From: a virus
DNA: 28,322 bases
Direction: 5' to 3' (one strand)
IMG/VR virus record: IMGVR_UViG_3300009609_000048
Span: 1-28,322 of that record
The position numbers and the translations under genes were made by a program. How positions within the stretch are numbered: position 1 is the first letter of the stretch; each line of letters opens with the position of its first letter. Of this stretch, positions 4,304 through 28,258 are shown piece after piece. The notes beneath the pieces were generated by a model. That model was not told the DNA's origin. It saw only the letters and a list, made by a program, of their open reading frames with translations, and did no database searches.

Positions 4304-5997
4304 TACTTCGATCCGTGGTAGAAGATGCTGGTTCTGGCCAACGCGATATCTCCCGAGGCACCGTGCGCGGTCAGGTCGAACGTGACGTCCTGATCCGTGG
4401 TCCACGTGACGGCGGGCGAACCAAAGTCAATTTCTTGGTTGACCGCTGCCGGCGTTCTGTCTTCCACTACGATTGTGAACGCGGTGTCGCTGTTTCCGCC
4501 AGTGTTGGCTCGCACCAGACACCGCACCGAGTAGTCCTTGGTAGTCGCGAGCGTGAGCGACTTGAGCGTGGTTGCCCCGATCTTGATCGCCAAAGTTCCG
4601 GTTGTGCCACCGCTGGCTGTTTGGATGATGGCGCAGATTTCGAGAACGTCTCCAGTCTTCAGACTATTCGCGCGCACCGTGTGTGAGTGTGTCGTGAACA
4701 CTCCGGTCGTGGTACCGGACTTGGTCTCGCTGGTGAACGTGTGGTGCGAAGTGCCCACGGTGGGACCAACATCGCCCTCGTTCGCCATGGCGCGCAAACC
4801 GGTACTGCCGGTATGATTCACGCCGTCCGTGACCGCTCCACGACAGTTGTTGCCGACGACGTCACAGGTCGTGGTCGTGTTCGCGTTCACGCCGTATGCA
4901 CCGGCCGCGGTACAATTGTTACCAGTGACCCACAGGTCGACGCTATTCGTGATGTCGATACCATCCGAGGTTGCGGCAGGCACCTGGCATCCGGCCACGC
5001 ACCCACGGTTCGAGGCCACACGAATCCCGTCGGTCGTGGAGTTGGGGGCGAAGCAGTTCCTGACCTGGACATCCTTCAGCAAGGCTGCCGTGTTGCCAAG
5101 CTCGTACGGAAGTCCGGTACAACTAACCACGTGGTTGTTCGCGAGCGTGATGCGACTGTGTGCGTCTATGCCTGCGGCGCCGCTCCCGAGGATCCGCATC
5201 CCCTTTGCACCACCGGTCTGCACGCGGCTATTGGCGATTATGATATCCTGCAGCAGATGCGACGAACTGGGCGGCACCATACTGAGTGCGTCACCAGCGG
5301 CGTTCTTCGAGACCCAGTTGTCTACGATCAGGCCCGAGACATCATCCGCCACAATGTGACTGTCGCTGCCACCGTTGCAGTGCAGATTCGTGATGAGTGC
5401 GTCCGTGCAGCTCTGGCCGGCGACGCCCCCGTTCGTGAGGTACACGAAGTCGCCGGTGAACGCGGTCATGTAGACCTTGTTCATGCGGAATCGCGCAACG
5501 CGCTTGGCGGACACGCCGATGCAGCCCGCGCCCCCACCCGTACCATCGAGCATCAAATTCTCGATGCTGATGTCCGAGAGGCCCGAGGTACCAGTAGTCA
5601 AGAGTGGGCCGGTCGCGGCCGCAGTGATCTTGATCACCGAGGTCGGGCCGTACCCGAATATCTGCACGTTACTAGCGTCGATGCTGACGTTGTTGGCCGA
5701 GATCGTGGTGTAGGGCGGAATCAAAACCGCGCCGCCGCCCGTCGCTTCAACCGCAGATATGGCGGCATCGAGGGTCGCGTACTCGTCCGCGTTCACCACG
5801 TTCCAGAACTTACGCAGCCCCACGATCGAATAGAGCTGCTGCATGTCGATGTCGCCCTGGGCCGTCAAGGGCCAGGTGATATCCGACTGGGACACGCCCC
5901 CGGCGAACTTCGCCTCAAGGATGTCCATGACCGAGTTCCAGATCTCGGCCGTGAGGAAGTCTTTCTTCGCGAGCCGCGTGAGTCCAAGAATTGCCAT
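4303..5997 (-). CDS. Tailspike / receptor-binding protein, parallel beta-helix, 564 aa
   Basis: A 564 aa protein that begins with a short helical segment (residues 1-45, likely virion attachment) and then a pectate-lyase-like entry (NVVNADEYATLDAAISAVEA, about 66-85) typical of phage tailspikes. Residues about 90-410 are repeated short turns rich in Asn, Ser, Thr and Gly (for example VTGNNCTAAGAYGVNANTTT), the pattern of a right-handed parallel beta-helix. A beta-rich C-terminal domain (about 415-564) probably trimerises or binds the receptor. Such spikes bind or cleave surface polysaccharide; catalytic acids cannot be assigned by eye. Start and stop are TAATG/TAGTG couplings with the nozzle and GNAT genes, placing it in the tail module. 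Confidence 0.85.
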   Translation of the reverse strand: MAILGLTRLAKKDFLTAEIWNSVMDILEAKFAGGVSQSDITWPLTAQGDIDMQQLYSIVGLRKFWNVVNADEYATLDAAISAVEATGGGAVLIPPYTTISANNVSIDASNVQIFGYGPTSVIKITAAATGPLLTTGTSGLSDISIENLMLDGTGGGAGCIGVSAKRVARFRMNKVYMTAFTGDFVYLTNGGVAGQSCTDALITNLHCNGGSDSHIVADDVSGLIVDNWVSKNAAGDALSMVPPSSSHLLQDIIIANSRVQTGGAKGMRILGSGAAGIDAHSRITLANNHVVSCTGLPYELGNTAALLKDVQVRNCFAPNSTTDGIRVASNRGCVAGCQVPAATSDGIDITNSVDLWVTGNNCTAAGAYGVNANTTTTCDVVGNNCRGAVTDGVNHTGSTGLRAMANEGDVGPTVGTSHHTFTSETKSGTTTGVFTTHSHTVRANSLKTGDVLEICAIIQTASGGTTGTLAIKIGATTLKSLTLATTKDYSVRCLVRANTGGNSDTAFTIVVEDRTPAAVNQEIDFGSPAVTWTTDQDVTFDLTAHGASGDIALARTSIFYHGSK

Positions 5998-13428: not shown

Positions 13429-14349
13429 CTAACCCTGCCCGCCGACCCAGCCGCGCCAGTCGGCAACGCCATGGGACATGCGGAAGAGCATCTTGACCTT
13501 GAGGTTGAGCGTCTCGGGATCCACGTAGCTGTCGCTAAACGGCTCCTTACGCCAGTAGTACATCAAGCGATGCTGATCGGGCGAGCACGAGACGAACCAG
13601 TTCTCGGGGTTCGTCAGGTACCGGATCACAAGCGGGTCCAGGCCGACCATCGTCAGCGCGTTCGCCGCATTGTTCGCCGTGTCCGACCGAAGCTGCGAAC
13701 GCAGCAACTCGTGGGTGAGCCACTTGAGCTGCGTCGGCACGATCAGGTTCTTCGGCTCCATGCCGATCAAGAGACCACGATCGTTCTTCATCTGCTCGAA
13801 GACGTTCAGCGCCGATTCGAGCGTGCCCTGAGCCAGGTCGCCCGAAACCAGGTTGCTGAACGTGCCACCACTGGGGAACGCCAGAGGGTGCGACGCGCTG
13901 AAAAACGCGACGCCATCCATGCCGGTCACCGAGGTCGTGAAACCGCTATTGAGATCGTCGTAGGCCGAGATCTCGATGCTCCGGCGCGCGGACTCCGCGA
14001 GCTCGGGCGTGACCTGATTGATGACACCATCGAGGTCATCCTCTGCGGCCTCCCACGTCACCATGTACCCGTTGGCAAAGGTGTCATGGGCGTACCGCTT
14101 CGAATAACCCTCGGTGAACTTGTCATAGTCAACCGGAGACCCTTCGTCCTTTTTCTTGAACAACCCGAGACCCACCAGGCTCAGGATCTCTTCGTACGCG
14201 CGTTCGGAATCGCGAACGTTGAAGACCCGCTGGTACGTCATCTCGGGAGCACGCTGGGGCTCGAAGAGAATCTCGTCGATATACGGAATTCTGGCCGCGT
14301 AGAGCTTCTGAAGATTTCCGCGGAATACCAGACTGTTTGCACTAGCCAT
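13429..14349 (-). CDS. Major capsid protein, 306 aa
   Basis: A 306 aa protein consistent with an HK97-fold major head protein of the Mu gpT-related type: an N-terminal helical arm (NSLVFRGNLQKLYAARIPYI), a YEEILSLVGLGLFKKKDEGS segment, the FFSASHPL motif (149-156) seen in this group, the P-domain-like stretch MEPKNLIVPTQLKW (197-210), ALTMVGLDPLVIRYLTNPEN, and a C-terminal FRMSHGVADWRGWVGGQG tail. AGGAGGG lies nine bases before the ATG. The neighbours are scaffold and 188 aa structural genes upstream and the putative decoration gene downstream, the usual head-module order. Its product should be the most abundant virion protein. Confidence 0.88.
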   Translation of the reverse strand: MASANSLVFRGNLQKLYAARIPYIDEILFEPQRAPEMTYQRVFNVRDSERAYEEILSLVGLGLFKKKDEGSPVDYDKFTEGYSKRYAHDTFANGYMVTWEAAEDDLDGVINQVTPELAESARRSIEISAYDDLNSGFTTSVTGMDGVAFFSASHPLAFPSGGTFSNLVSGDLAQGTLESALNVFEQMKNDRGLLIGMEPKNLIVPTQLKWLTHELLRSQLRSDTANNAANALTMVGLDPLVIRYLTNPENWFVSCSPDQHRLMYYWRKEPFSDSYVDPETLNLKVKMLFRMSHGVADWRGWVGGQG

Positions 14350-17046: not shown

Positions 17047-19370
17047 TATGCGACACCACCCTCAAGTTGGCTGAGCTCGCCACCAGCGGCCGCGACGTTG
17101 TTCGATTGGCCGCCGCCCATTCCACTCTGCATGGCTCCCGCGGCCTGCTTGGCCACCAATTGTCGCGCGTGCTTATTCATGTGCGACGAAAGGAACGCAA
17201 CCTGCCACGGCTGGAACGATTCGAACACCGAACTGTTCACGAGCCGGCGCAGTACCTGCAGGTGGCCCGCGTCGTCGTCAGTGGGTAGGATGTCCATGTC
17301 CTGTCCCGCGAGCATCAGTTCGATCTCGGACTCCTGGGACATTGGCGCGTGGCTGCCCGGGGACTGCGGTACGCCCGGATCCAGCTTGTCGATGTTGACG
17401 CCCTCGCTATTGTGGCGTAGGAAGTCGAGTATCAGTTCGCGGCGCGCGGCAGGATTCGCAAGGTACGCGGGATCGCCCGCGAGCATCTGGAACCGCTGGA
17501 TCGCGATCGTGCGACGCACCTCTTGGTTCGTGTTGGTACTGTTGCCGCGGAAGATGTATTCGAATTTGCCCTCCATGTCGGAGCGCGTGATCTTCTGCGG
17601 CTTTTCGGAGCCGGTGACCCAGAACCATTCCTCGTCGGGGCCAAAGTGGTGGCAGAGACTATGCACCTGGTACACGAGCTCCTTCCAACCACTCTGTTGC
17701 GCCTCCATGATGAACGAGTCGATTTTGGCGCTACCCTCGCTCAGGAGCGCAAGGGTACCACGCGCGGTGCGCGGGGCGTTACGGACCTGGGTTGAGCCGG
17801 CGGACTGCGGCGACATTGTGAGTCGGTCCGCAAACAGGAGCAATGAGTCTACGGACTGCAGGTTCGCGAGTGGCTGTTGCGGAAACGTGGGGAAGAAAAT
17901 CCCCTTGGCGTTCGCCACCGGCACGCCCATTCCGGGGCGCACACCGTTTTGAAGACTCGCATTGTCCCCGAACGCAATGGGTTCGTAAAAGAAGAACGGA
18001 TTGTTGATGATCTCCTGGGCCTCGTGCACCTGGTTCAGGGTGACGTCGCATTCCTCGTTGATGGGTAGGAGCCATTGCGCGATCGGGATCGTGTACCAGC
18101 GATTGTCGATCTGCACGCCATGCAGCGTCGGAAACGGACGATGCCCGTGCGGGAACACCGATTCGAGATAGTCGGTACGCACGATGGTTTCGGTGTAGGC
18201 CGGGATCTGGTAGATGACCTCCTCGACCTCACCATCCTCGTCCGCGTCATCGAGCGCATACACCTCGAAAATCAGAACCTTGTTGTCGACGAATGGCTCG
18301 AAGGTTCCGTTCGGCCTCTGGTACACACGCGAAAGATTCGAGTCGTGCTCGCCCACCTGAAGATCGCGCTGGTTCTTGAGTTCGGTATTCTCCTCGTGCT
18401 CCTCCATCTTCTCGGAGCGTCCCTGGGCACGCAGTCCATTCATGTCGGCCTCGGACAGGTTCCACTCGCCCGAGTCGACCTTCTCTTGGATCTGGTGCAG
18501 TGTGAGCCAGTACTGGCGCCCCACGCGCTCCGCGGTTTGTGGATCCATTGCGCGATACGGCAGGATGATGTCCTCGGGCTCGATGTTCTCAAACACGACC
18601 CCGTCGCGCACCACAACGGTGCGGTGGACACACAGCTCCACCTCGTCGACACGTTTGGTGTCGTAGAAGTAGACTTTGACATCCCTGTACTTGACGCGAT
18701 CCTCAATAAAGTTCACGGTCGCGACCAGGCCCTCGAAGCCCTCGAACTCGGTCTCTAGCGGAATGTCGGAGCCGTCCAACGAAATCGACGTGACGCTCAC
18801 TGCCTTACCGAACTGTTGCTGCAGAAGTTCGATTGGCAGTTTCAGTCGCTCGGCCAGTACCTCTGTGTCGAGCATGTCGGTCTCACCCACAAGCCAGTAT
18901 TTCTTCTGAAAACTGGTCTGGATACCCTTGCGCGTCTCGTACGAGTAGTACGGCATCAACACCGAAGGTCCATCCAACAACATTCCGCGCACCCAGCGCT
19001 GGATGTGGCGGTAACTGTCGGGGATGCTCACGGCGAACTTCCAGTTGAGGTACGCCTCATTCTTCCGGGTTTTTTCGGGATCGACGTCCTTCATGGGTCG
19101 GGACACGTTCACGAACGGGTCCGCACCGTACATGGCGTTCATTACCTTGAGCGTCATGCCCTCGACCTTCTCGGTAATCACCGGCAGGTGCATGTTGACC
19201 TGGCCCGGGTAACGAAGGTCGCGATCGATGTCCCCGTAGTAGTACTGGCGAATCTTCTCCAGCATCGCCATGTGCGGTTTGCGATCGCGCAAATCGCCAT
19301 CGATCAGCTCCAGAAGCTGCCGGCCGCGATCCTTGGCGAACTTCTCCGTTATCTGGATTGCACGCGCCAC
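17046..19370 (-). CDS. Portal protein (large podoviral type), 774 aa
   Basis: A 774 aa portal, close in size to the P22 gp1 type. The N-terminal segment carries YYYGDIDRDLRYPGQVNMHL and LPVITEKVEGMTLKVMNAMY; then come a wing region with DVKVYFYDTKRV, GHRPFPTLHGVQIDNRWYTI and PINEECDVTLNQVHEAQEII, the core AFGDNASLQNGVRPGMGVPV and the clip/stem region with RNAPRTARGTLALLSEGSAK. The C-terminus is long, with QSPGSHAPMSQESEIELM and a Gly/Gln-rich end, perhaps the barrel. The protein forms the dodecameric ring for DNA packaging and tail attachment. The start is GTG at 19370 within the previous stop (TAGTG). Order terS-terL-portal is classical. Confidence 0.88.
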   Translation of the reverse strand: MARAIQITEKFAKDRGRQLLELIDGDLRDRKPHMAMLEKIRQYYYGDIDRDLRYPGQVNMHLPVITEKVEGMTLKVMNAMYGADPFVNVSRPMKDVDPEKTRKNEAYLNWKFAVSIPDSYRHIQRWVRGMLLDGPSVLMPYYSYETRKGIQTSFQKKYWLVGETDMLDTEVLAERLKLPIELLQQQFGKAVSVTSISLDGSDIPLETEFEGFEGLVATVNFIEDRVKYRDVKVYFYDTKRVDEVELCVHRTVVVRDGVVFENIEPEDIILPYRAMDPQTAERVGRQYWLTLHQIQEKVDSGEWNLSEADMNGLRAQGRSEKMEEHEENTELKNQRDLQVGEHDSNLSRVYQRPNGTFEPFVDNKVLIFEVYALDDADEDGEVEEVIYQIPAYTETIVRTDYLESVFPHGHRPFPTLHGVQIDNRWYTIPIAQWLLPINEECDVTLNQVHEAQEIINNPFFFYEPIAFGDNASLQNGVRPGMGVPVANAKGIFFPTFPQQPLANLQSVDSLLLFADRLTMSPQSAGSTQVRNAPRTARGTLALLSEGSAKIDSFIMEAQQSGWKELVYQVHSLCHHFGPDEEWFWVTGSEKPQKITRSDMEGKFEYIFRGNSTNTNQEVRRTIAIQRFQMLAGDPAYLANPAARRELILDFLRHNSEGVNIDKLDPGVPQSPGSHAPMSQESEIELMLAGQDMDILPTDDDAGHLQVLRRLVNSSVFESFQPWQVAFLSSHMNKHARQLVAKQAAGAMQSGMGGGQSNNVAAAGGELSQLEGGVA

Positions 19371-19732
19371 TAGTCGGTCACCACGTACTCAATGCGTGCC
19401 TCTTGCGCGCCCGTGTTACGCACCCACAGGTGCGAGAAAGAAGCGGTCATCATCAGGACTCCGTTTGCCGAGAGCGTCCACTTGTTGGCGGGTGTCACGC
19501 CCAATCCAACCAGAATCTCTTTGTCGGTCTCCAACATGATGCGCGCCCCAACCGCGACACCACCCAGATTCACCTGCTGCGAGGTCGACATGTTGGTCGA
19601 AAGTACAGCGCGCTCGGTCGTATGCTCCGTGTAGTCGGTGTCCTCGCTCACGTACGACTGGTCGTAGAGAGTAGTGCCGTTGCGCGTGAGGCGCACACGA
19701 ACGAAGTCCTTGCCCTTGAGGCTATCTGCCAT
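19370..19732 (-). CDS. Beta-rich small protein between terminase and portal, 120 aa
   Basis: A 120 aa protein predicted mostly beta (DFVRVRLTRNGTTLYDQSYV; ANKWTLSANGVLMMTASFSH; TGAQEARIEYVVTD), with a good GGAG site five bases before the ATG and an 11 nt overlap with the terminase end. I do not recognise a family. Similar small beta proteins next to portal genes can be head-completion or decoration proteins; this is inference from position. Confidence 0.7.
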   Translation of the reverse strand: MADSLKGKDFVRVRLTRNGTTLYDQSYVSEDTDYTEHTTERAVLSTNMSTSQQVNLGGVAVGARIMLETDKEILVGLGVTPANKWTLSANGVLMMTASFSHLWVRNTGAQEARIEYVVTD

Positions 19733-21326
19733 CGCGTCTCCAGAAGGCGGTCGATTCGACCGTCCGTGATTGAATCTGCTGCTTCATCGTGTGCTTCAAC
19801 ATCCGGAACGTAAGTCCGGACTGGAACCCGTATCTGATCAGATCGATGAAGTCGTCGTTTACTTTGCGCACTTCTTGCTTCTCACCCTTGACATCGCGTT
19901 GCTTACCCGAGGCCCAATCATCCCACACGAAGCGCAGGAAGTTCATCTTCACGTGCTGGCACGTGTTGACGACGACCAGTTGGGGCTTGCTCCATTCGTA
20001 CGGGAGACGCAGCGCCTCGTGAATCGCATCGAATCCGGCGTCCGCGTTCCGCTTGTTCGCGAGAATGTGTGGCAACTTGTTGTCGATGAACCGTGACCAG
20101 ATCGACTCTCCCGTGGTGCGGTCCGTTTCGCGCGAGGACCAGTCGATGAGTCGTGTAACCACGTTCTCGCTTTCGTCAGTCTGGACGAATGTGGGTTTGT
20201 CCTGGTGGTCCCGTCCCGTTTCCTTCCACTTCTCGGCGCGCTTGATTGCGTCGGATACCGTGTCCACTGTCTTCAACGACTCGTCAAACATGTCGCGGTA
20301 GACGATGAACTGGTTGTCGGGGCTGATCGCGATCCAAAGTACCGCGACCGGTTTACGCTTGTGCGGATCGCAGAGTTCCACACGCGGCCAGTGCGCCGGG
20401 ATGTCGAAGGGCGGAACCCAGAACGGTGGTTCGGGCTTCCACTCCTTGAACACGCGGCCGGTCAGGTGCAGCCATTCGCGCCCGACACGCGCGGCGCGCT
20501 GATCGTCGCGCAAACCCGCGATGAAGGACTCGATGGCCTTGCGCGGGAGTACGCCCCCGTTGTCGACACAATTGTCCCAGATCGAGAACTCGAATACGCG
20601 CACCGCGCCGCCTAGATCGTTCGCGCGCGACTCGATCACGTCCGCGATCCAGGGCTGGGATAGTGGCGTAAGCGTGAGCCAATAGTGCCCGCCGTGATCC
20701 ACGAGACCACGCGTCAGGGCCGCGTACTTGTTGTAGCCAATCGGTTCGTCGCCCCAAAACCAGTGCCCACTGGTCCCCTCGAAGACGTCGTCCTCCTGGT
20801 CGTCCGACATGAAGTAGATGACGCTTCCGTTGTTCCAGATAATTTCGACCGGGATCCCGCGCGTATCGAACTTGGTCTTGTACCACCCGAGCGGCGCCCA
20901 TTCGCGAAATTTCGGGTAGATGTTCTGTTTGATCGCCTGGTTGTAGTTCTGCGCGATCACGCGCCCAATGTTCGGGACCGGAATCGGCCGACCATCCGAG
21001 AGTCGCACTATCCGGTTCGGGTCGTCCTTCGGGAGCCAGGGGCGCTCGCCGAGCGAGTACGCGATCGCTTCGCAGACCCCGGACACGGACTTACCCGAGC
21101 GGTTGTCACCCAGCACCAGTCGCTCATTCACGGCCGGGCCCGCCTGATGAAACGCCGCCTGAACCCCGCGTGGCCCGAGTTCGGACTTCGTCCGGGGCCG
21201 GTAGAAACAAATCTTCTGGGTCCGGTACGCTGCCTCCAACGCGACGAGGTCGCGGTACAGGTCGCGCAGGTCCGCGATCAACTTGATGTCTTGGTCAAGC
21301 CTGGTTACGGAAGTCGAGTCGTCCAT
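19722..21326 (-). CDS. terL: Terminase large subunit, 534 aa
   Basis: The DNA-packaging motor ATPase/nuclease. Counting from ATG 21326: Walker A is GDNRSGKS (73-80), and Walker B with the catalytic Glu is HWFWGDEP (188-195). The C-terminal nuclease domain begins with the metal-binding Asp in VELCDPHKRKPVAVLWIAIS (Asp 320), and the terminal metal-binding segment is DDFIDLIRYG (491-500). All main motifs are intact. The start is uncertain: ATG 21326 (AGAGGA just upstream but very close) or ATG 21344. Both overlap the small subunit end, as expected for coupled terminase genes. Confidence 0.92.
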   Translation of the reverse strand: MDDSTSVTRLDQDIKLIADLRDLYRDLVALEAAYRTQKICFYRPRTKSELGPRGVQAAFHQAGPAVNERLVLGDNRSGKSVSGVCEAIAYSLGERPWLPKDDPNRIVRLSDGRPIPVPNIGRVIAQNYNQAIKQNIYPKFREWAPLGWYKTKFDTRGIPVEIIWNNGSVIYFMSDDQEDDVFEGTSGHWFWGDEPIGYNKYAALTRGLVDHGGHYWLTLTPLSQPWIADVIESRANDLGGAVRVFEFSIWDNCVDNGGVLPRKAIESFIAGLRDDQRAARVGREWLHLTGRVFKEWKPEPPFWVPPFDIPAHWPRVELCDPHKRKPVAVLWIAISPDNQFIVYRDMFDESLKTVDTVSDAIKRAEKWKETGRDHQDKPTFVQTDESENVVTRLIDWSSRETDRTTGESIWSRFIDNKLPHILANKRNADAGFDAIHEALRLPYEWSKPQLVVVNTCQHVKMNFLRFVWDDWASGKQRDVKGEKQEVRKVNDDFIDLIRYGFQSGLTFRMLKHTMKQQIQSRTVESTAFWRRDGR

Positions 21327-21978
21327 TGTCCTCTGTTGGCGCATCCGCCTGTTCGACCTCAACCAGTGCATCGAGCCGCGTAGCAAGATCCGGATTGTCT
21401 TCGCGGAAATCAACCTTGAGCACCGAGATGTTGGTGACGCGGTGCTTGATCGCGGTGATAAGCTGCTCGATGCTCTCGGGCATCAGCAACTTGCCGGTCT
21501 GATTGTCCTCGGCAATCGCGCGGCTATAGTCCCGCAGTACCCGCAACTTGTCGGTGAAGATCCCGGCCGCGATCGCCTTTTGCGAGAGCGAGGGGCCGTA
21601 GTGCGTGTAACCCACGAGTTCGCCCTTCGAGTTGTGGATCGGGATCCGGCCCGATTCTAGGTCCTCTGGGGTGAGCGAATCGAGCACCTGTTCGGTCGAC
21701 TCGTAGAACCGCTCCGTGAGCGTGTCCGCCATTGCCTGTTTCTGGCCCTCGATCACCTTTGGGTCCTTGGTACTCTCGATCGCCTTGATCACGTTGTACA
21801 CGGTCGTGGGCGTCACGCCCATAGCGCGCGCCGTGGCCGACTTGTTTCCCAGCGCGAGGTACGACTGGTAAATCGCTTCTCGTTCGGGTGTCGTGAGTCC
21901 GTGCCCGCGACCTTTGTGCTTACCGCGCGTGAGGTCCGGGGTACCGGCCGGTTTCGGTTTCTTGATGCCCTTGGGCAC
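21295..21978 (-). CDS. terS: Terminase small subunit-like protein, 227 aa
   Basis: GTG start at 21978 is chosen because GGAGG lies eight bases upstream, one base after the preceding stop; an ATG at 21993 is possible but poorly led. Residues about 28-68 form a helix-turn-helix (TTPEREAIYQSYLALGNKSA, then TARAMGVTPTTVYNVIKAI). A second conserved region, YGPSLSQKAIAAGIFTDKLR (near 140-160), is the S-L-S-Q-x-A-x-x-x-G-[IL]-x-x-D-K pattern I associate with phage small-terminase-like proteins. It should recognise pac/cos DNA and stimulate the large subunit encoded next, which overlaps its 3' end. Confidence 0.8.
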   Translation of the reverse strand: MPKGIKKPKPAGTPDLTRGKHKGRGHGLTTPEREAIYQSYLALGNKSATARAMGVTPTTVYNVIKAIESTKDPKVIEGQKQAMADTLTERFYESTEQVLDSLTPEDLESGRIPIHNSKGELVGYTHYGPSLSQKAIAAGIFTDKLRVLRDYSRAIAEDNQTGKLLMPESIEQLITAIKHRVTNISVLKVDFREDNPDLATRLDALVEVEQADAPTEDNGRLDFRNQA

Positions 21979-23968: not shown

Positions 23969-24106
23969 CTACTTGCTGACCGACTCCGTGGACGGGCTGG
24001 TCGGAAAGGGATTCTGCTCAATATGGTTCTGGACCGCGAGGTACAGGGCCATGACGGCTGCGGCGATCCATACCGCGATGTTGGCAACTTTCTGAAAGAG
24101 CTTCAT
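23969..24106 (-). CDS. Small single-pass membrane protein, 45 aa (holin candidate)
   Basis: A 45 aa protein: a short basic N-terminus (MKLFQK), one hydrophobic helix at about residues 7-26 (VANIAVWIAAAVMALYLAVQ) and a polar tail ending in SVSK. AAGGAG is three to four bases from the ATG, which overlaps the stop of the HicB-like gene (ATGA). Phage membrane proteins this small are often holins, pinholins or spanin-like accessories, but no endolysin is visible nearby, so the holin idea is weak inference. The following 122 bp to the fibre gene contain only the palindrome. Confidence 0.7.
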   Translation of the reverse strand: MKLFQKVANIAVWIAAAVMALYLAVQNHIEQNPFPTSPSTESVSK

Positions 24107-24513
24107 TTTTCTCCTTGGGTTGGTGCTGAGGTAATTTCGTACGGACCGGAGCCGTCAGCGGGCGCCTCCGGTTCGAGTTCGTCGGCGGCTGCGGCCGCCA
24201 TTTCCTTGGCGCGTAATTCGTCCTGGAGCTTAAGGCCGTGCATGAGGCGGTCTATGGCGTTCTGGCGGGTGAAGCCCTGGGCGACTATGCCCGCCGCTGG
24301 TAGCTCGGCCACGTAGCAGCCGACCTGTGGATCGAATGAGCAGCGCGTTGCCTTGCGGATGACGCGCATACGGTGCGCCGCGAACTTGATGATGTCGAGG
24401 GTCGCGCGCAGCTCGGCCATTGCGTCGTCCGCGGTTTCGGCGGTGCACTCCAGGTGGTCGAGGGGCGCGGCCGCGACGAAGCAGGTGTCGTTGATGCGCT
24501 TAAGGGTTATCAC
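24103..24513 (-). CDS. Tandem HicB-like domain protein, 136 aa
   Basis: GTG start at 24513 overlapping the stop of the 83 aa gene (GTGA); an upstream frame extension lies within that gene. The product seems to contain two copies of a HicB-antitoxin-like unit: about residues 5-40 (CFVAAAPLDHLECTAETADD, then AMAELRATLDIIK) and about 58-97 (VGCYVAELPAAGIVAQGFTR, then QNAIDRLMHGLKLQDEL). Each has V-A-x-x-P...T-x-x-[DN]-A-x-x-x-L-x-x-x-L. An acidic Ala/Glu tail follows. HicB proteins bind HicA toxin and often DNA, but no HicA-like gene is visible here. As the second gene of the late block it may regulate, but that is inference. Confidence 0.6.
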   Translation of the reverse strand: MITLKRINDTCFVAAAPLDHLECTAETADDAMAELRATLDIIKFAAHRMRVIRKATRCSFDPQVGCYVAELPAAGIVAQGFTRQNAIDRLMHGLKLQDELRAKEMAAAAADELEPEAPADGSGPYEITSAPTQGEK

Positions 24514-24761
24514 AGCGTGGGTTCCCCCGGATCCTTGACGCCCCCGAAGTGGTACGTGGGGTTGATCAGAATCTCCAGCAGGTCGATGATCCGATCGAGC
24601 TTGGTCCCGATATCGTTCGATGTCAGGGGTGCGTAGCGCCACACCGGCGGCTTTGTCAGCTCGGGCATCGGGACGTAAACCATGCCGGGACTATTGGTTA
24701 CGGTCTGGGACGATGGGTCATTACCCGGAAGTGTCAGGTCATCATGGCAGCTATCGGACAT
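24510..24761 (-). CDS. First gene of the leftward block, 83 aa, unknown
   Basis: The start at 24761 is chosen over a frame extension to 24905 because AGAAGG precedes this ATG and because the extension would run through the sigma-54-like promoter at 24827-24842. The 83 aa product is polar at the N-terminus and contains Pro-rich MVYVPMPELTKPPVWRYAPL and an amphipathic helix (SNDIGTKLDRIIDLLEILIN, about 48-67). I do not recognise it. It is coupled to the HicB-like gene (GTGA) and is the first gene after the putative late promoter. Confidence 0.65.
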   Translation of the reverse strand: MSDSCHDDLTLPGNDPSSQTVTNSPGMVYVPMPELTKPPVWRYAPLTSNDIGTKLDRIIDLLEILINPTYHFGGVKDPGEPTL

Positions 24762-24826
24762 CGTGTCACACCTTCTGGGTCTGGTTACCCGGTTCGAGGG
24801 CCTTTTTGCCCCGTGGGGACTGTATA

Positions 24827-24842
24827 AGCAGGATCCGTGCCA
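24827..24842 (-). promoter_or_regulatory. Sigma-54 (-24/-12) promoter candidate for the late operon
   Basis: On the minus strand TGGCACG-GATC-CTGCT matches 11 of 12 consensus positions of TGGCACG-N4-TTGCW, with the essential GG-N10-GC spacing intact. Predicted initiation near 24815-24818 would give a leader of about 55 nt before the ATG at 24761, the first gene of the whole leftward block. A sigma-54 promoter needs an ATP-driven activator bound upstream (to the right, toward the AT-rich island). Confidence 0.72.
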
Positions 24843-24963
24843 ATTTCTCAGGATTTCTTCGAAGATCTGAAGATTCTGTCGTTTTTCTTTGGAGGGGGCT
24901 GTCACCGCGGAATGTTAGTAGGGAGAATCGCGCGCGCCCGGGCCCCGTGGGGGGCCGCCCCTT

Positions 24964-24979
24964 AGCAAGAACCATGCCA
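24964..24979 (-). promoter_or_regulatory. Sigma-54 promoter candidate, minus strand, copy 2
   Basis: The minus strand reads TGGCATGGTTCTTGCT: 11 of 12 consensus positions with perfect TTGCT and GG-N10-GC spacing. It is back to back with the plus-strand candidate at 24986, their -24 elements only 6 bp apart and forming part of the CCATGCC/GGCATGG palindrome. It would fire leftward toward the late block about 200 bp away. Confidence 0.65.
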
Positions 24980-24988
24980 CCGGCATGG
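24972..24988. repeat. Palindrome linking two divergent -24 elements
   Basis: CCATGCC (24972-24978) and GGCATGG (24982-24988) are perfect 7-bp inverted repeats with a 3-nt spacer. The arms coincide with the -24 elements of the divergent sigma-54-like promoters at 24964-24979 and 24986-25001. It may be just a consequence of back-to-back promoters, or an operator for a dimer that blocks both. Confidence 0.6.
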
Positions 24989-25001
24989 CACGTAACTTGC
25001 T
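24986..25001 (+). promoter_or_regulatory. Sigma-54 promoter candidate, plus strand, perfect core
   Basis: TGGCACGTAACTTGCT matches every position of the TGGCACG-N4-TTGCW core. Predicted initiation is near 25011-25013, reading rightward into the AT-rich island and, if not terminated, to the plus-strand genes at 25688. Its distance to the next plus-strand candidate is exactly 40 bp. Confidence 0.75.
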
Positions 25002-25025
25002 ATGGCATAACCTATTCCAATAACT

Positions 25026-25041
25026 TGGCACATATCCTGCT
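25026..25041 (+). promoter_or_regulatory. Sigma-54 promoter candidate, plus strand, copy 2
   Basis: TGGCACATATCCTGCT matches 10 of 12 core positions with GG-N10-GC spacing. It faces the minus-strand candidate at 25049-25064, so the two start sites fall inside each other's footprints and simultaneous use is unlikely. Confidence 0.55.
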
Positions 25042-25048
25042 AACCATA

Positions 25049-25064
25049 AGCAATAACCATGCCA
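25049..25064 (-). promoter_or_regulatory. Sigma-54 promoter candidate, minus strand, copy 3
   Basis: The minus strand reads TGGCATGGTTATTGCT, differing by one base from the 16-mer at 24964-24979 (15/16 identity), and matches 11 of 12 core positions. The two form a direct repeat 85 bp apart. Convergent with the plus-strand candidate at 25026-25041. Confidence 0.63.
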
Positions 25065-25102
25065 AGGTTCGCGGGACCGCGATTCCCGGCCGCTGCTCTC
25101 CG

Positions 25103-25117
25103 AGCGCGCTTCGCGCT
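25103..25117. repeat. Small GC hairpin at the left edge of the AT-rich island
   Basis: AGCGCG-CTT-CGCGCT is a perfect 6-bp stem with a 3-nt loop, immediately followed by TATAATG and an alternating GC tract (25125-25137). It marks the abrupt border between GC-rich DNA and the AT-rich island. No T-run follows, so it is not a standard terminator. Confidence 0.45.
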
Positions 25118-25140
25118 ATAATGAACGCGCGCGCGCGGCA

Positions 25141-25410
25141 TCTTAGTACTTACCCGTAAATGACTGGTGGTAAACGGTAACTTAGTATTATTACTATAGT
25201 TATAGATAAGTGTTAGATATGTTATTGTTATTGTTATAGTTATATCTTCTTATTGAGTAAGTTCTCTTTTTACTTATAGTTACATCATACTAGTTTACCC
25301 AATAAACAGTGTAACTTGTTATTCTATAATCTGATAACCCGTAAGCAGATAGCCCGTAGCGTGCTAACCTCTTACGTATGCTATAGTTAATCACTAGTCG
25401 TAAGCTGTCC
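25141..25410. other. AT-rich island with phased TATAGTTA repeats; candidate enhancer or origin
   Basis: This stretch is strikingly AT-rich inside a GC-rich genome and has no gene. TATAGTTA occurs at 25195-25202, 25235-25242, 25275-25282 (exactly 40-bp spacing) and again at 25382-25389. ACCCGTAA-like words occur near 25152 and 25337, and CTTACG/CGTAAG arms flank the fourth copy (25371-25376 and 25399-25404). Iterated short repeats in AT-rich DNA are typical of replication origins; regularly spaced sites upstream of sigma-54 promoters are typical of activator-binding enhancers. Sequence alone does not decide. Confidence 0.65.
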
Positions 25411-25411
25411 C

Positions 25412-25445
25412 GCATTCCGCGTCGTGCAAGTTGCGGAACGCACGA
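25412..25445. repeat. Interleaved alternative hairpins
   Basis: GCATTCCGC (25412-25420) pairs with GCGGAACGC (25433-25441) with one G-T pair. TCGTGC (25422-25427) pairs with GCACGA (25440-25445). The second 3' arm overlaps the first, so the two stems are mutually exclusive, as in an attenuator. The element lies between the AT-rich island and the plus-strand promoter at 25510. Confidence 0.45.
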
Positions 25446-25509
25446 TCGGCCCTTGTAATCACGCGAAACAACCCGATACTCCAGGACATCTTGGGGCATT
25501 CCACGCTAT

Positions 25510-25525
25510 TGGCACGGGACTGGCA
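25510..25525 (+). promoter_or_regulatory. Sigma-54 promoter candidate for rightward genes
   Basis: TGGCACGGGACTGGCA matches 11 of 12 core positions (TGGCA instead of TTGCA) with GG-N10-GC spacing. Predicted initiation is near 25536, about 150 nt before the first rightward ATG (25688). The phased TATAGTTA sites lie about 120-315 bp upstream, the usual distance for a sigma-54 enhancer. Confidence 0.62.
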
Positions 25526-25631
25526 TAGGCACGGTCCGGCCGATCAAGTGGCCGACCCGCTCGAAAGGGCGGATGGTGGCGCAACCCGATAGACGCGCCA
25601 CAGTCCCGCGGTCGGCAGCATCGGGGGACGG

Positions 25632-25665
25632 CCAACATACTGCCCACACCGCGCCATAGCAGCCG
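25632..25665 (+). promoter_or_regulatory. 34-bp leader repeat, copy A
   Basis: Conserved blocks CATACTGCCC and CGCGCCATAGC separated by a variable 4-nt spacer, followed by N-GCCG. It matches copy B at 28 of 34 positions, and four of the six differences are in the spacer. It ends exactly 23 nt before the A of the ATG at 25688. The strict spacing to a start codon suggests a promoter or 5' leader element. No sigma-70 hexamers are evident. Confidence 0.62.
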
Positions 25666-25687
25666 GTCGGGCTGAACGGAGGATGCC

Positions 25688-25990
25688 ATGAGTAGACGCC
25701 AGCGAAGGCGCGCCAAGGCAAGGGTACGGGACGCGTACATACACGGGTACGCTATTCCAAGGTTGGACGCGCCTAAGCCCCGGCCCCAGTATCGCGCCGA
25801 TCGTACGTTCAGGGACGCGCTCCCGGACGTGCCGCGCCCGGTCGCCAAGGGTACGGTCCCAGTCCACGAGGTTATCGTCCTGCAGACGCTGACCGCGCGC
25901 GGGACCGGGGAGCATACCAAGGGCAAGCGCCACATACGCTACCGCGCCGTCTCGCTCTGGCGCGGGACCCGTCTCGCGCCGAAACCGTAG
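25688..25990 (+). CDS. Basic uncharacterised protein, 100 aa, first rightward gene
   Basis: A 100 aa, very Arg-rich protein (MSRRQRRRAKARVRDAYIHG), with a Pro-rich middle (PRLDAPKPRPQYR) and a strand-like C-terminal half (VHEVIVLQTLTARGTG; HIRYRAVSLWRGTRLAPKP). I recognise no family. GGAGG is five bases before the ATG. The charge suggests nucleic-acid or ribosome contact, and its location as first gene after the control region suits an early host-takeover or regulatory protein, but that is inference. Confidence 0.68.
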   Translation: MSRRQRRRAKARVRDAYIHGYAIPRLDAPKPRPQYRADRTFRDALPDVPRPVAKGTVPVHEVIVLQTLTARGTGEHTKGKRHIRYRAVSLWRGTRLAPKP

Positions 25991-26130: not shown

Positions 26131-26403
26131 ATGAACCTATACCGTATATGCACCGAAGGCGGCGCCGAGAATGAGGAGCGCGCGCTGTACCTTGTTTCCC
26201 AGTACTTCCCCGGATACACGGTGCTACGCGGCAAGGGATTCTGGAAGGGCACGCGCGAGAAATCGCTCGTGATCGAAATAGCCGCGGACGCGATAGACGC
26301 GGACAAGGTTCGAAACATGGCCGACGAGATACGCGCGGTAAATCAGCAAGACTCGGTCTGCATTCAAACCCTAACATGCGAGGTTCACCAATGCACGGGC
26401 TAA
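26131..26403 (+). CDS. Conserved phage-type hypothetical protein, 90 aa
   Basis: A 90 aa protein with the pattern of a small phage family I have seen repeatedly but cannot name: an N-terminal strand, an RALYLVSQYFPGYTVLRGKG segment, the motif GFWKGTREKSLVIEI (36-50) and a closing NMADEIRAVNQQDSVCIQTL region. This resembles an alpha/beta ferredoxin-like fold in which residues around W-K-G-x-R-E-x-S are conserved. GGGGG lies about six bases before the ATG. Overlaps the next gene by 13 nt. The role is unknown; probably an early or replication-accessory protein. Confidence 0.75.
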   Translation: MNLYRICTEGGAENEERALYLVSQYFPGYTVLRGKGFWKGTREKSLVIEIAADAIDADKVRNMADEIRAVNQQDSVCIQTLTCEVHQCTG

Positions 26404-27262: not shown

Positions 27263-27416
27263 CAGGTACCTTGTCACGGGCGTGACTGTGGAAGGCAAAC
27301 GGTTCCGGATCGTGTGCGACACGTGGTGGCACGCGTGCGGAATCAATCTCTATCGCGGGAGCAGGTGGCTACTACGCGACGGGCGGCGCGCCCTGATTGC
27401 GCGCGTGTACAACTAA
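27231..27416 (+). CDS. Uncharacterised small protein, 61 aa
   Basis: ATG-ATG at 27231 preceded by GGGAGG (nine bases) inside the zinc-ribbon gene, overlapping it by 32 nt. The 61 aa product is beta-rich and basic (DRYLVTGVTVEGKRFRIVCD; TWWHACGINLYRGSRWLLRD; GRRALIARVYN). The pattern is like small SH3-like beta-barrel proteins common in phages, but I cannot name a family. Stop 14 nt before the DUF932 gene. Confidence 0.7.
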   Translation: MMKTWSARPGDRYLVTGVTVEGKRFRIVCDTWWHACGINLYRGSRWLLRDGRRALIARVYN

Positions 27417-27430
27417 CGGGAGGTTTTCCT

Positions 27431-28258
27431 ATGTTGACCAAGCACAAAGTGTTCGATGGTAAGCTGGTGCACGCGTGGACCGAGCCCGCGTACCGCGAGA
27501 CTACGCGCCCCGATACGCGCGCGAAACAGTACGAGGGTACAAATCACCGGTTCGTCGTGGACGAGCGCGACGATATTGTCGGCACGGTCTCGGACCAGTA
27601 CACGCTGGTGCGGAACGCGGACGTGATCGCGGCGCTCGACCTGGCCGCGGGTGAGCGGAATCTTGCGCTCGACCCCACCAAGGCCGCGTACCGGAACGGG
27701 CGCAGTTTTTACGAGGTGAAGGTCCCGGGCTTCGGGTACCGGGTGAGCGGCGATCCCAGCGGGATGGTGCCGAGCATCATCGTGCGCAACGACTACCGGG
27801 GGGGCGGTGGGCTCAAGATTCAGGGTGGAATCTTCAGGCTCGCGTGCACCAATGGACTGGTCGTGGGTGATATCGCGTACTTCACGAACCAGCGCCACGT
27901 GGGCCAGATCGACGTGATCGGGTTCTTCCGCGACGCCCTGTCCCGGATGGAGGAAAAGATCGAGGTCAACCGGCTCCTGGCCGAGGCTATGACGCGGGTC
28001 AGGCCCGTGCCCGAAGTGGTCGAGGCGATCATCGCCGACACCGCGGACCGGTACCGTGCCGACTGGGACCGCGCGCTTCGCGAGAACGTGGCCGAGATCG
28101 GCGACAACATGTGGGCCGTGGCGCAGGCGGTTTCGGAACTGTCAACGCACCGGATGCAGACCCGCGCAACGGGCGACGCCCGGACCGAGTACAACATGGG
28201 CGCGGACACCTGGGCCACGCGCCAGTGGGATCGGATCGCGGCCCTGGTCGGGGCGTAG
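27431..28258 (+). CDS. DUF932 family protein, 275 aa
   Basis: A 275 aa protein matching the DUF932 family (phage/plasmid-related proteins of unknown function). Features: KHKVFDGKLVHAWTEPAYRE at the start, VVDERDDIVGTVSDQYTLVR (about 42-61) giving the typical V-S-x-x-Y-x-L-V-x-N block, SIIVRNDYRGGGGLKIQGGI (about 115-134), and FRLACTNGLVVG, the strongest DUF932-like motif (about 135-146). The C-terminal third is helical. GGGAGG lies seven bases before the chosen ATG; a longer frame to 27314 has no ribosome site and overlaps the preceding gene. DUF932 genes are frequent in early or accessory phage regions. Confidence 0.82.
   Translation: MLTKHKVFDGKLVHAWTEPAYRETTRPDTRAKQYEGTNHRFVVDERDDIVGTVSDQYTLVRNADVIAALDLAAGERNLALDPTKAAYRNGRSFYEVKVPGFGYRVSGDPSGMVPSIIVRNDYRGGGGLKIQGGIFRLACTNGLVVGDIAYFTNQRHVGQIDVIGFFRDALSRMEEKIEVNRLLAEAMTRVRPVPEVVEAIIADTADRYRADWDRALRENVAEIGDNMWAVAQAVSELSTHRMQTRATGDARTEYNMGADTWATRQWDRIAALVGA

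Follow-up and report, generated by a model that had tools for sequence, protein, structure and literature searches.

The 28.3-kb virus record IMGVR_UViG_3300009609_000048 (61% GC; the whole of this stretch is referred to as the window) carries, between two divergent gene blocks, six copies of a motif which, in the window and in its relatives, most likely represents sigma-54-type promoter elements. Judging from the sequence comparisons presented here, the divergent control region that holds them would probably act as a docking platform for host sigma-54 polymerase. We also consider, with some reserve, that many unrelated uncultured phages might possess regulatory DNA of a type not described before, namely compact alternating arrays of near-perfect sigma-54 sites that are nearly absent from cellular genomes and that would capture host polymerase as a decoy, a reservoir or a divergent switch instead of serving as ordinary promoters; the window would be a small version of these.

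Six sigma-54-type sites in a divergent control region

In the window, a leftward (late) block of genes, including those for terminase and the major capsid protein, extends over 1-24.8 kb, and a rightward (early) block begins at ~25.7 kb with genes for a small conserved protein, a protein weakly resembling S-adenosylmethionine (SAM) lyases and a DUF932 protein (Table 1). Noncoding DNA, AT-rich in its centre, separates the two. The SAM-lyase resemblance, although below cut-off, occurs at the start of the early block, where an anti-restriction gene would be expected. No end repeats and no tRNA were found in the window; blastn of the control region against cultured phages returned no match, the terminase is at most ~27% identical to those of named phages, and no relative of the phage was found in the cellular genome collection.

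An earlier note on this DNA had described six 16-mers, three per strand, matching the sigma-54 consensus at 10-12 of 12 positions with exact GG-N10-GC spacing. Each of the six was found exactly where the note had placed it, with the spacing intact in 6/6. Sites were scored over the 12 consensus positions, a hit being defined as at least 10/12 with both GG and GC. By this measure, region 24643-25687 contains 6 hits against a mean of 0.075 in dinucleotide shuffles (maximum 2 in 1000 shuffles), and the remaining 27.3 kb of the window contains none, so that the comparison with coding DNA and shuffled controls which the note had proposed as a check came out in its favour. An external matrix was built from 24 ChIP-mapped Salmonella sigma-54 sites (sequences from PMC3844500). 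It ranks the six sites above all other 16-mers of the window on both strands, and places five of them at 16.3-19.6 bits, within the range of the Salmonella ChIP sites when left out (11.9-19.7 bits). The identification as sigma-54 -24/-12 elements thus stands, with the sixth site, at 25510, being marginal: it reaches 11.6 bits, the top coding hit, at 17650, reaches 11.1 bits, and its assignment therefore rests more on position than on sequence. The -12 form of this site, TGGCA, is also seen at position 4394 of a related record (L004), 60 nt before a start.

Table 1 Features of the window and of related or array-carrying records (positions without a record name refer to the window)
Feature	Position	Strand	Remarks
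Terminase large subunit	19722..21413	-	P-loop GDNRSGKS; anchors leftward (late) block
Major capsid protein	13429..14349	-	PHROG 371
Leftward-block ORF	24103..24642	-	Partly conserved in L011 (5083-5370)
First leftward-block gene (our gene call)	24510..24761	-	Start ATG 24761; AGAAGGTG before ATG
Sigma-54-type -24/-12 site TGGCACGGATCCTGCT	24827..24842	-	11/12; 17.5 bits; candidate late promoter, GC 67 nt before ATG 24761
Sigma-54-type site TGGCATGGTTCTTGCT	24964..24979	-	11/12; 18.2 bits; inner cluster, back to back with 24986
Sigma-54-type site TGGCACGTAACTTGCT	24986..25001	+	12/12; 18.4 bits; inner cluster
Sigma-54-type site TGGCACATATCCTGCT	25026..25041	+	10/12; 16.3 bits; inner cluster, face to face with 25049
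Sigma-54-type site TGGCATGGTTATTGCT	25049..25064	-	11/12; 19.6 bits, best of the window; inner cluster
AT-rich noncoding stretch between site groups	25140..25400		Carries sigma-70-like promoters
Weak sigma-54-like site TGGCACGGGACTGGCA	25510..25525	+	11/12; 11.6 bits; candidate early promoter, ~164 nt before ATG 25688
First rightward (early) gene	25688..25990	+	Conserved in L011 (3312-3506)
Early gene, weak S-adenosylmethionine lyase resemblance	26131..26403	+	PF23780, 19.8 bits vs cut-off 28; relatives in L011, L012
DUF932 protein, early block	27314..28258	+	PF06067, 7e-15; homologue in L004
Dense array	L077:328-523		Nine sites in ~195 bp
Dense array	L162:178-700		Thirteen sites in 400 bp
Dense array	L124:650-941		Eleven sites
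Dense arrays, mostly strand-alternating	L062:8236-8447; L152:16-219; L112:688-917
Palindromic motif near arrays	L146:9205-9280; L133:2105 and 2515; L241:7138; L195:5546; L235:3565; L144:3931

The four inner sites lie back to back at 22 bp, in tandem at 40 bp and face to face at 23 bp. As polymerase footprints, 24964/24986 and 25026/25049 (23 bp start to start) overlap; thus, although all six sites match the consensus, they are not six independently usable promoters, and the overlapping inner sites cannot all be simultaneous promoters. That every site is noncoding holds if the first late gene starts at ATG 24761, but an alternative GTG-start ORF, 24510-24905, would cover site 24827. Only AGAAGGTG is available as a ribosome-binding site before ATG 24761, which fails a strict Shine-Dalgarno (SD) rule, as do the window sites themselves. 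Sigma-70-like promoters are present in the AT-rich part (+ 25303-25330, + 25253-25280 and - 25216-25187), indicating that sigma-54 need not be the sole entry to the early block; strict gating of both blocks by sigma-54, tied to host nitrogen, stress or surface signals, cannot be maintained in the form in which it had been proposed.

Conservation of the sites in relatives of the phage

Terminase searches yielded records L001-L042, with terminases ~38-78% identical. Several sites are present in the divergent gap of L004, L006, L007, L011 and L012 and weaker ones in L010, L015 and L041, while the more distant L042 and L039 show no clear sites. In relatives with 55-78% identical terminases, early-facing and late-facing sites are kept in the same gap, upstream of the terminase operon. 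Both the motif and its position are thus retained across related phages, a comparison that the note had also put forward. When read so that the terminase points rightward, a region usually passes from early genes and an early-facing site through an AT-rich stretch to one or more late-facing sites, often followed by an opposed site, and then to the late genes. L011 deviates in that one late-facing site precedes its AT-rich stretch; such stretches are also contained in the control regions of L004, L007 and L012.

When spaced 4-mer pairs were counted without bias in five related control regions, GGCA-N7-TGCT came out as top dyad (15 against 0.38 expected), and between TGGCAY and TTGCW a gap of 5 bp alone is enriched, with 20 hits where other gaps have 0-8; since these regions were partly selected for having hits, the dyad count is supporting rather than independent evidence. 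Among 26 intergenic sites in eight records of the window family, 11 are followed, 10-110 nt past the GC, by an open frame with its SD sequence and start codon, compared with 1/26 when the same sites are read backwards and 18% of random intergenic positions. Clear cases, with the distance to the start, are L012 7000 (25 nt), L011 4780 (70), L011 3788 (102), L012 743 (31) and L012 6406 (66). In L011 a site stands 70 nt before the first late start, and in L004 the site at 2625 lies 47 nt before the start of a DUF932 gene homologous to that of the window. Such placement at gene starts favours the outward-facing sites being real promoters.

Dense alternating arrays in other phages

We scanned IMG/VR for two inverted sites in face-to-face and back-to-back arrangements. 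Both arrangements proved abundant, where ~1 row would be expected by chance as estimated from pattern information. The back-to-back pattern returned at least 119 rows with an internal spacer of N5, 0 with N4 and 3 with N6. At least 55 non-redundant groups, two of which are cellular records, hold 4-13 near-perfect sites in 400 bp. The earlier note knew of no phage control region as rich in such sites as that of the window, yet other phages hold 7-13 of them in 400 bp. The inner four sites of the window are a minimal four-site alternating case, not a dense array.

Across the arrays, 179/362 sites are perfect if the sixth position may be either C or T. Neighbouring sites alternate in strand in 208/277 pairs, a share biased upward because groups were found via opposed pairs, the further sites of each array being unselected. 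Distances between neighbours peak at 17-21 bp face to face and 21-26 bp back to back, and the inner sites of the window fall within the spacing that we took to define alternating arrays (opposite strands, at ~17-24 bp when face to face and 21-28 bp when back to back). Same-strand arrays (L154) and isolated single sites also exist. Bases in the centre of the site vary; the -24 and -12 boxes and the distance between them are constant, and the degenerate box positions match those of ChIP-mapped sigma-54 sites (C/T at 6, G/A at 7, T at 12, A/T at 16). Phages carrying the motif range from 31 to 63% GC, which favours a conserved host factor; as far as sequence can tell, such a factor would be the simplest binder of the arrays.

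Almost all arrays are intergenic, usually between divergent genes, and in 20 groups a terminase gene pointing away from the array is located at a distance of ~1-3 kb. Neighbour genes are rarely common to groups, which fall into 47 components at a threshold of at least 3 shared proteins and into 25 at any shared protein. Only 18/362 array sites (5%) precede an SD sequence and start, as against 13% of random intergenic positions (array-to-gene distances in L076 are unreliable, the gene caller having missed small early genes). The outermost sites both face inward in 22/55 arrays and both outward in 8/55. Few gene-start placements and inward-facing ends together indicate that the arrays are not simply promoters of the flanking genes.

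Among ~85,000 cellular genomes, the three-site alternating pattern was found in two records only, and rpoN is present in both genomes. One is a deltaproteobacterial draft genome with four-site arrays beside transposase-like gene copies (L256:694-1278, L265:4046-4130), where a mobile element may carry the arrays. The other is a 4.3-kb contig binned with a Verrucomicrobiia draft and holding four alternating sites (L257:137-211); this is possibly a phage contig and hence a host clue. A search for the face-to-face pair in 388 and 395 genomes from the two phyla revealed no further genome.

Proposed mechanism and alternative explanations

Sigma-54 holoenzyme stays inactive at its sites until an AAA+ activator acts on it. 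For an enhancer-binding protein (PF00158), no match above cut-off was obtained in 14 relatives or 50 array records, mostly fragments, and for the RpoN DNA-binding domain of sigma-54 none in the window, 13 relatives and 50 array records, most of them fragments. With no gene for either in the records searched, the phage would offer the sites, and the host would supply sigma-54, polymerase and the AAA+ activator. We propose that the outward sites closest to the first gene of each block (24827 on the late side and, probably, 25510 on the early side) would function as activator-dependent promoters, and that the inner four, a compact cluster with array-like spacing, probably keep sigma-54 holoenzyme bound in its inactive state, facing either way.

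The sites might instead serve only to bind sigma-54 holoenzyme and not act as promoters at all, which we regard as unlikely for the window. Multiplying phage DNA would then soak up sigma-54 polymerase, silencing the host's flagella, pili and stress genes, or polymerase would be parked as a barrier between the two blocks. Such a role would suit the density and near-perfection of the arrays in other phages, their inward-facing ends and the scarcity of starts behind their sites, and the window's inner spacings of 22 and 23 bp are array-like. It would also be in keeping with E. coli, where sigma-54 holoenzyme binding is mostly inactive and most bound sites are silent (PMC4591121). In the same organism, however, bound holoenzyme has no roadblock effect inside genes (PMC4591121), overlapping sites are ill suited to binding many polymerases, and many sites of the window's relatives precede gene starts in the sense orientation.

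Rather improbable, in our estimate, is that another DNA-binding protein, such as a phage or host repressor or a replication initiator, recognises a motif that coincides with the sigma-54 consensus by accident. Repeats beside an AT-rich stretch are indeed reminiscent of replication origins and alternating inverted sites of operators, and the arrays next to transposase-like genes in the deltaproteobacterial draft are similar; but iterons conserve the whole repeat, and here the middle varies while boxes and spacing hold, the degenerate positions track ChIP-mapped sigma-54 sites, and the motif occurs in phages with few or no neighbour genes in common. Hairpins, in RNA or single-stranded DNA, could form by pairing of the conserved boxes of face-to-face and back-to-back copies. 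As the functional feature they appear very improbable, given that same-strand arrays and isolated single sites occur, that no Rfam match was found, and that the five-base spacers of inverted neighbours match at 1.70/5 positions against 1.87/5 at random; a hairpin constraint was rejected on this absence of complementarity beyond random. Chance or base composition could be invoked at most for the sixth site, which scores little above the best coding hit; for the cluster it is refuted by the shuffle, spacing, positional and cross-phage controls, and as an account of the whole it can be practically dismissed.

Comparison with known systems

Phage takeover of transcription is usually thought to proceed via sigma-70, the phage's own sigma factors or its own polymerases. 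No description of phage sigma-54 arrays of this kind was found in full-text searches of open-access papers. If the proposal is correct, widespread phage sigma-54 sites together with a host activator would couple infection or takeover to a stress or nutrient pathway of the host; alternatively, phages would be depriving their host of one of its alternative sigma factors. Scanning for such arrays is straightforward.

The stoperators of mycobacteriophage L5 are many short asymmetric sites in intergenic DNA, bound by the phage repressor. The sites described here are likewise numerous, short, asymmetric and intergenic, but their motif is the sigma-54 consensus and is common to unrelated phages. In iteron-type replication origins, clustered repeats adjoin an AT-rich stretch, as they do in the window, whereas the centres of the phage repeats are unconserved and their orientation alternates. 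With the RpoN -24/-12 promoters of Salmonella and E. coli (PMC3844500, PMC4591121) the sites share the boxes, GG-N10-GC and the pattern of degenerate positions, and those of the relatives are often followed, after 25-105 nt, by a ribosome-binding site with its start codon. Unlike these promoters, the phage sites are predicted from sequence, are clustered and overlapping on both strands of one divergent region, and have no accompanying activator gene in the phage records searched (14 relatives, 50 array records). The Psp (phage shock) response is a pathway of host sigma-54 and PspF activated in some phage infections (PMC3844500, PMC3128695); there the sites are host promoters, whereas here they are on phage DNA.

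Additional features of the array-carrying phages

The IHF consensus looked enriched near arrays (26 hits, 0.35 vs 0.13 per kb elsewhere), but was rejected as such since it resolved into a longer palindrome, GTAAGT..TTGA..TCAA..ACTTAC, roughly GTAAGTNNTTGA..TCAANNACTTAC (Table 1). Half-sites of this palindrome are found within 1 kb of the array in 14/55 groups (0.22 vs 0.05 per kb elsewhere), and the palindrome is absent from the control region of the window. It could be bound by an activator, or could mark phages that have a group of hosts in common.

Four AT-rich array phages have in common a 215-230 aa protein (L076:1352-2029, L109:5881-6528, L178:3516-4205 and in L219) that by eye resembles sigma-70 region 2 and has no match in cultured phages. 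Proteins of ~245-330 aa ahead of the terminase in L124:1776-2759, L144:5062-6051 and L194:6490-7227 have ends that by eye look Hint/intein-like. The cultured relatives identified by capsid or terminase (Caulobacter phage RW, MW202545, Roseobacter CRP-901 and Alcaligenes QDWS535) have no array. In Caulobacter phage RW, which has a tractable host, the divergent gap (L259:2720-3218) contains two tandem copies of TTTTGGCACNNNNNNTGCC, possibly weak sigma-54 promoters.
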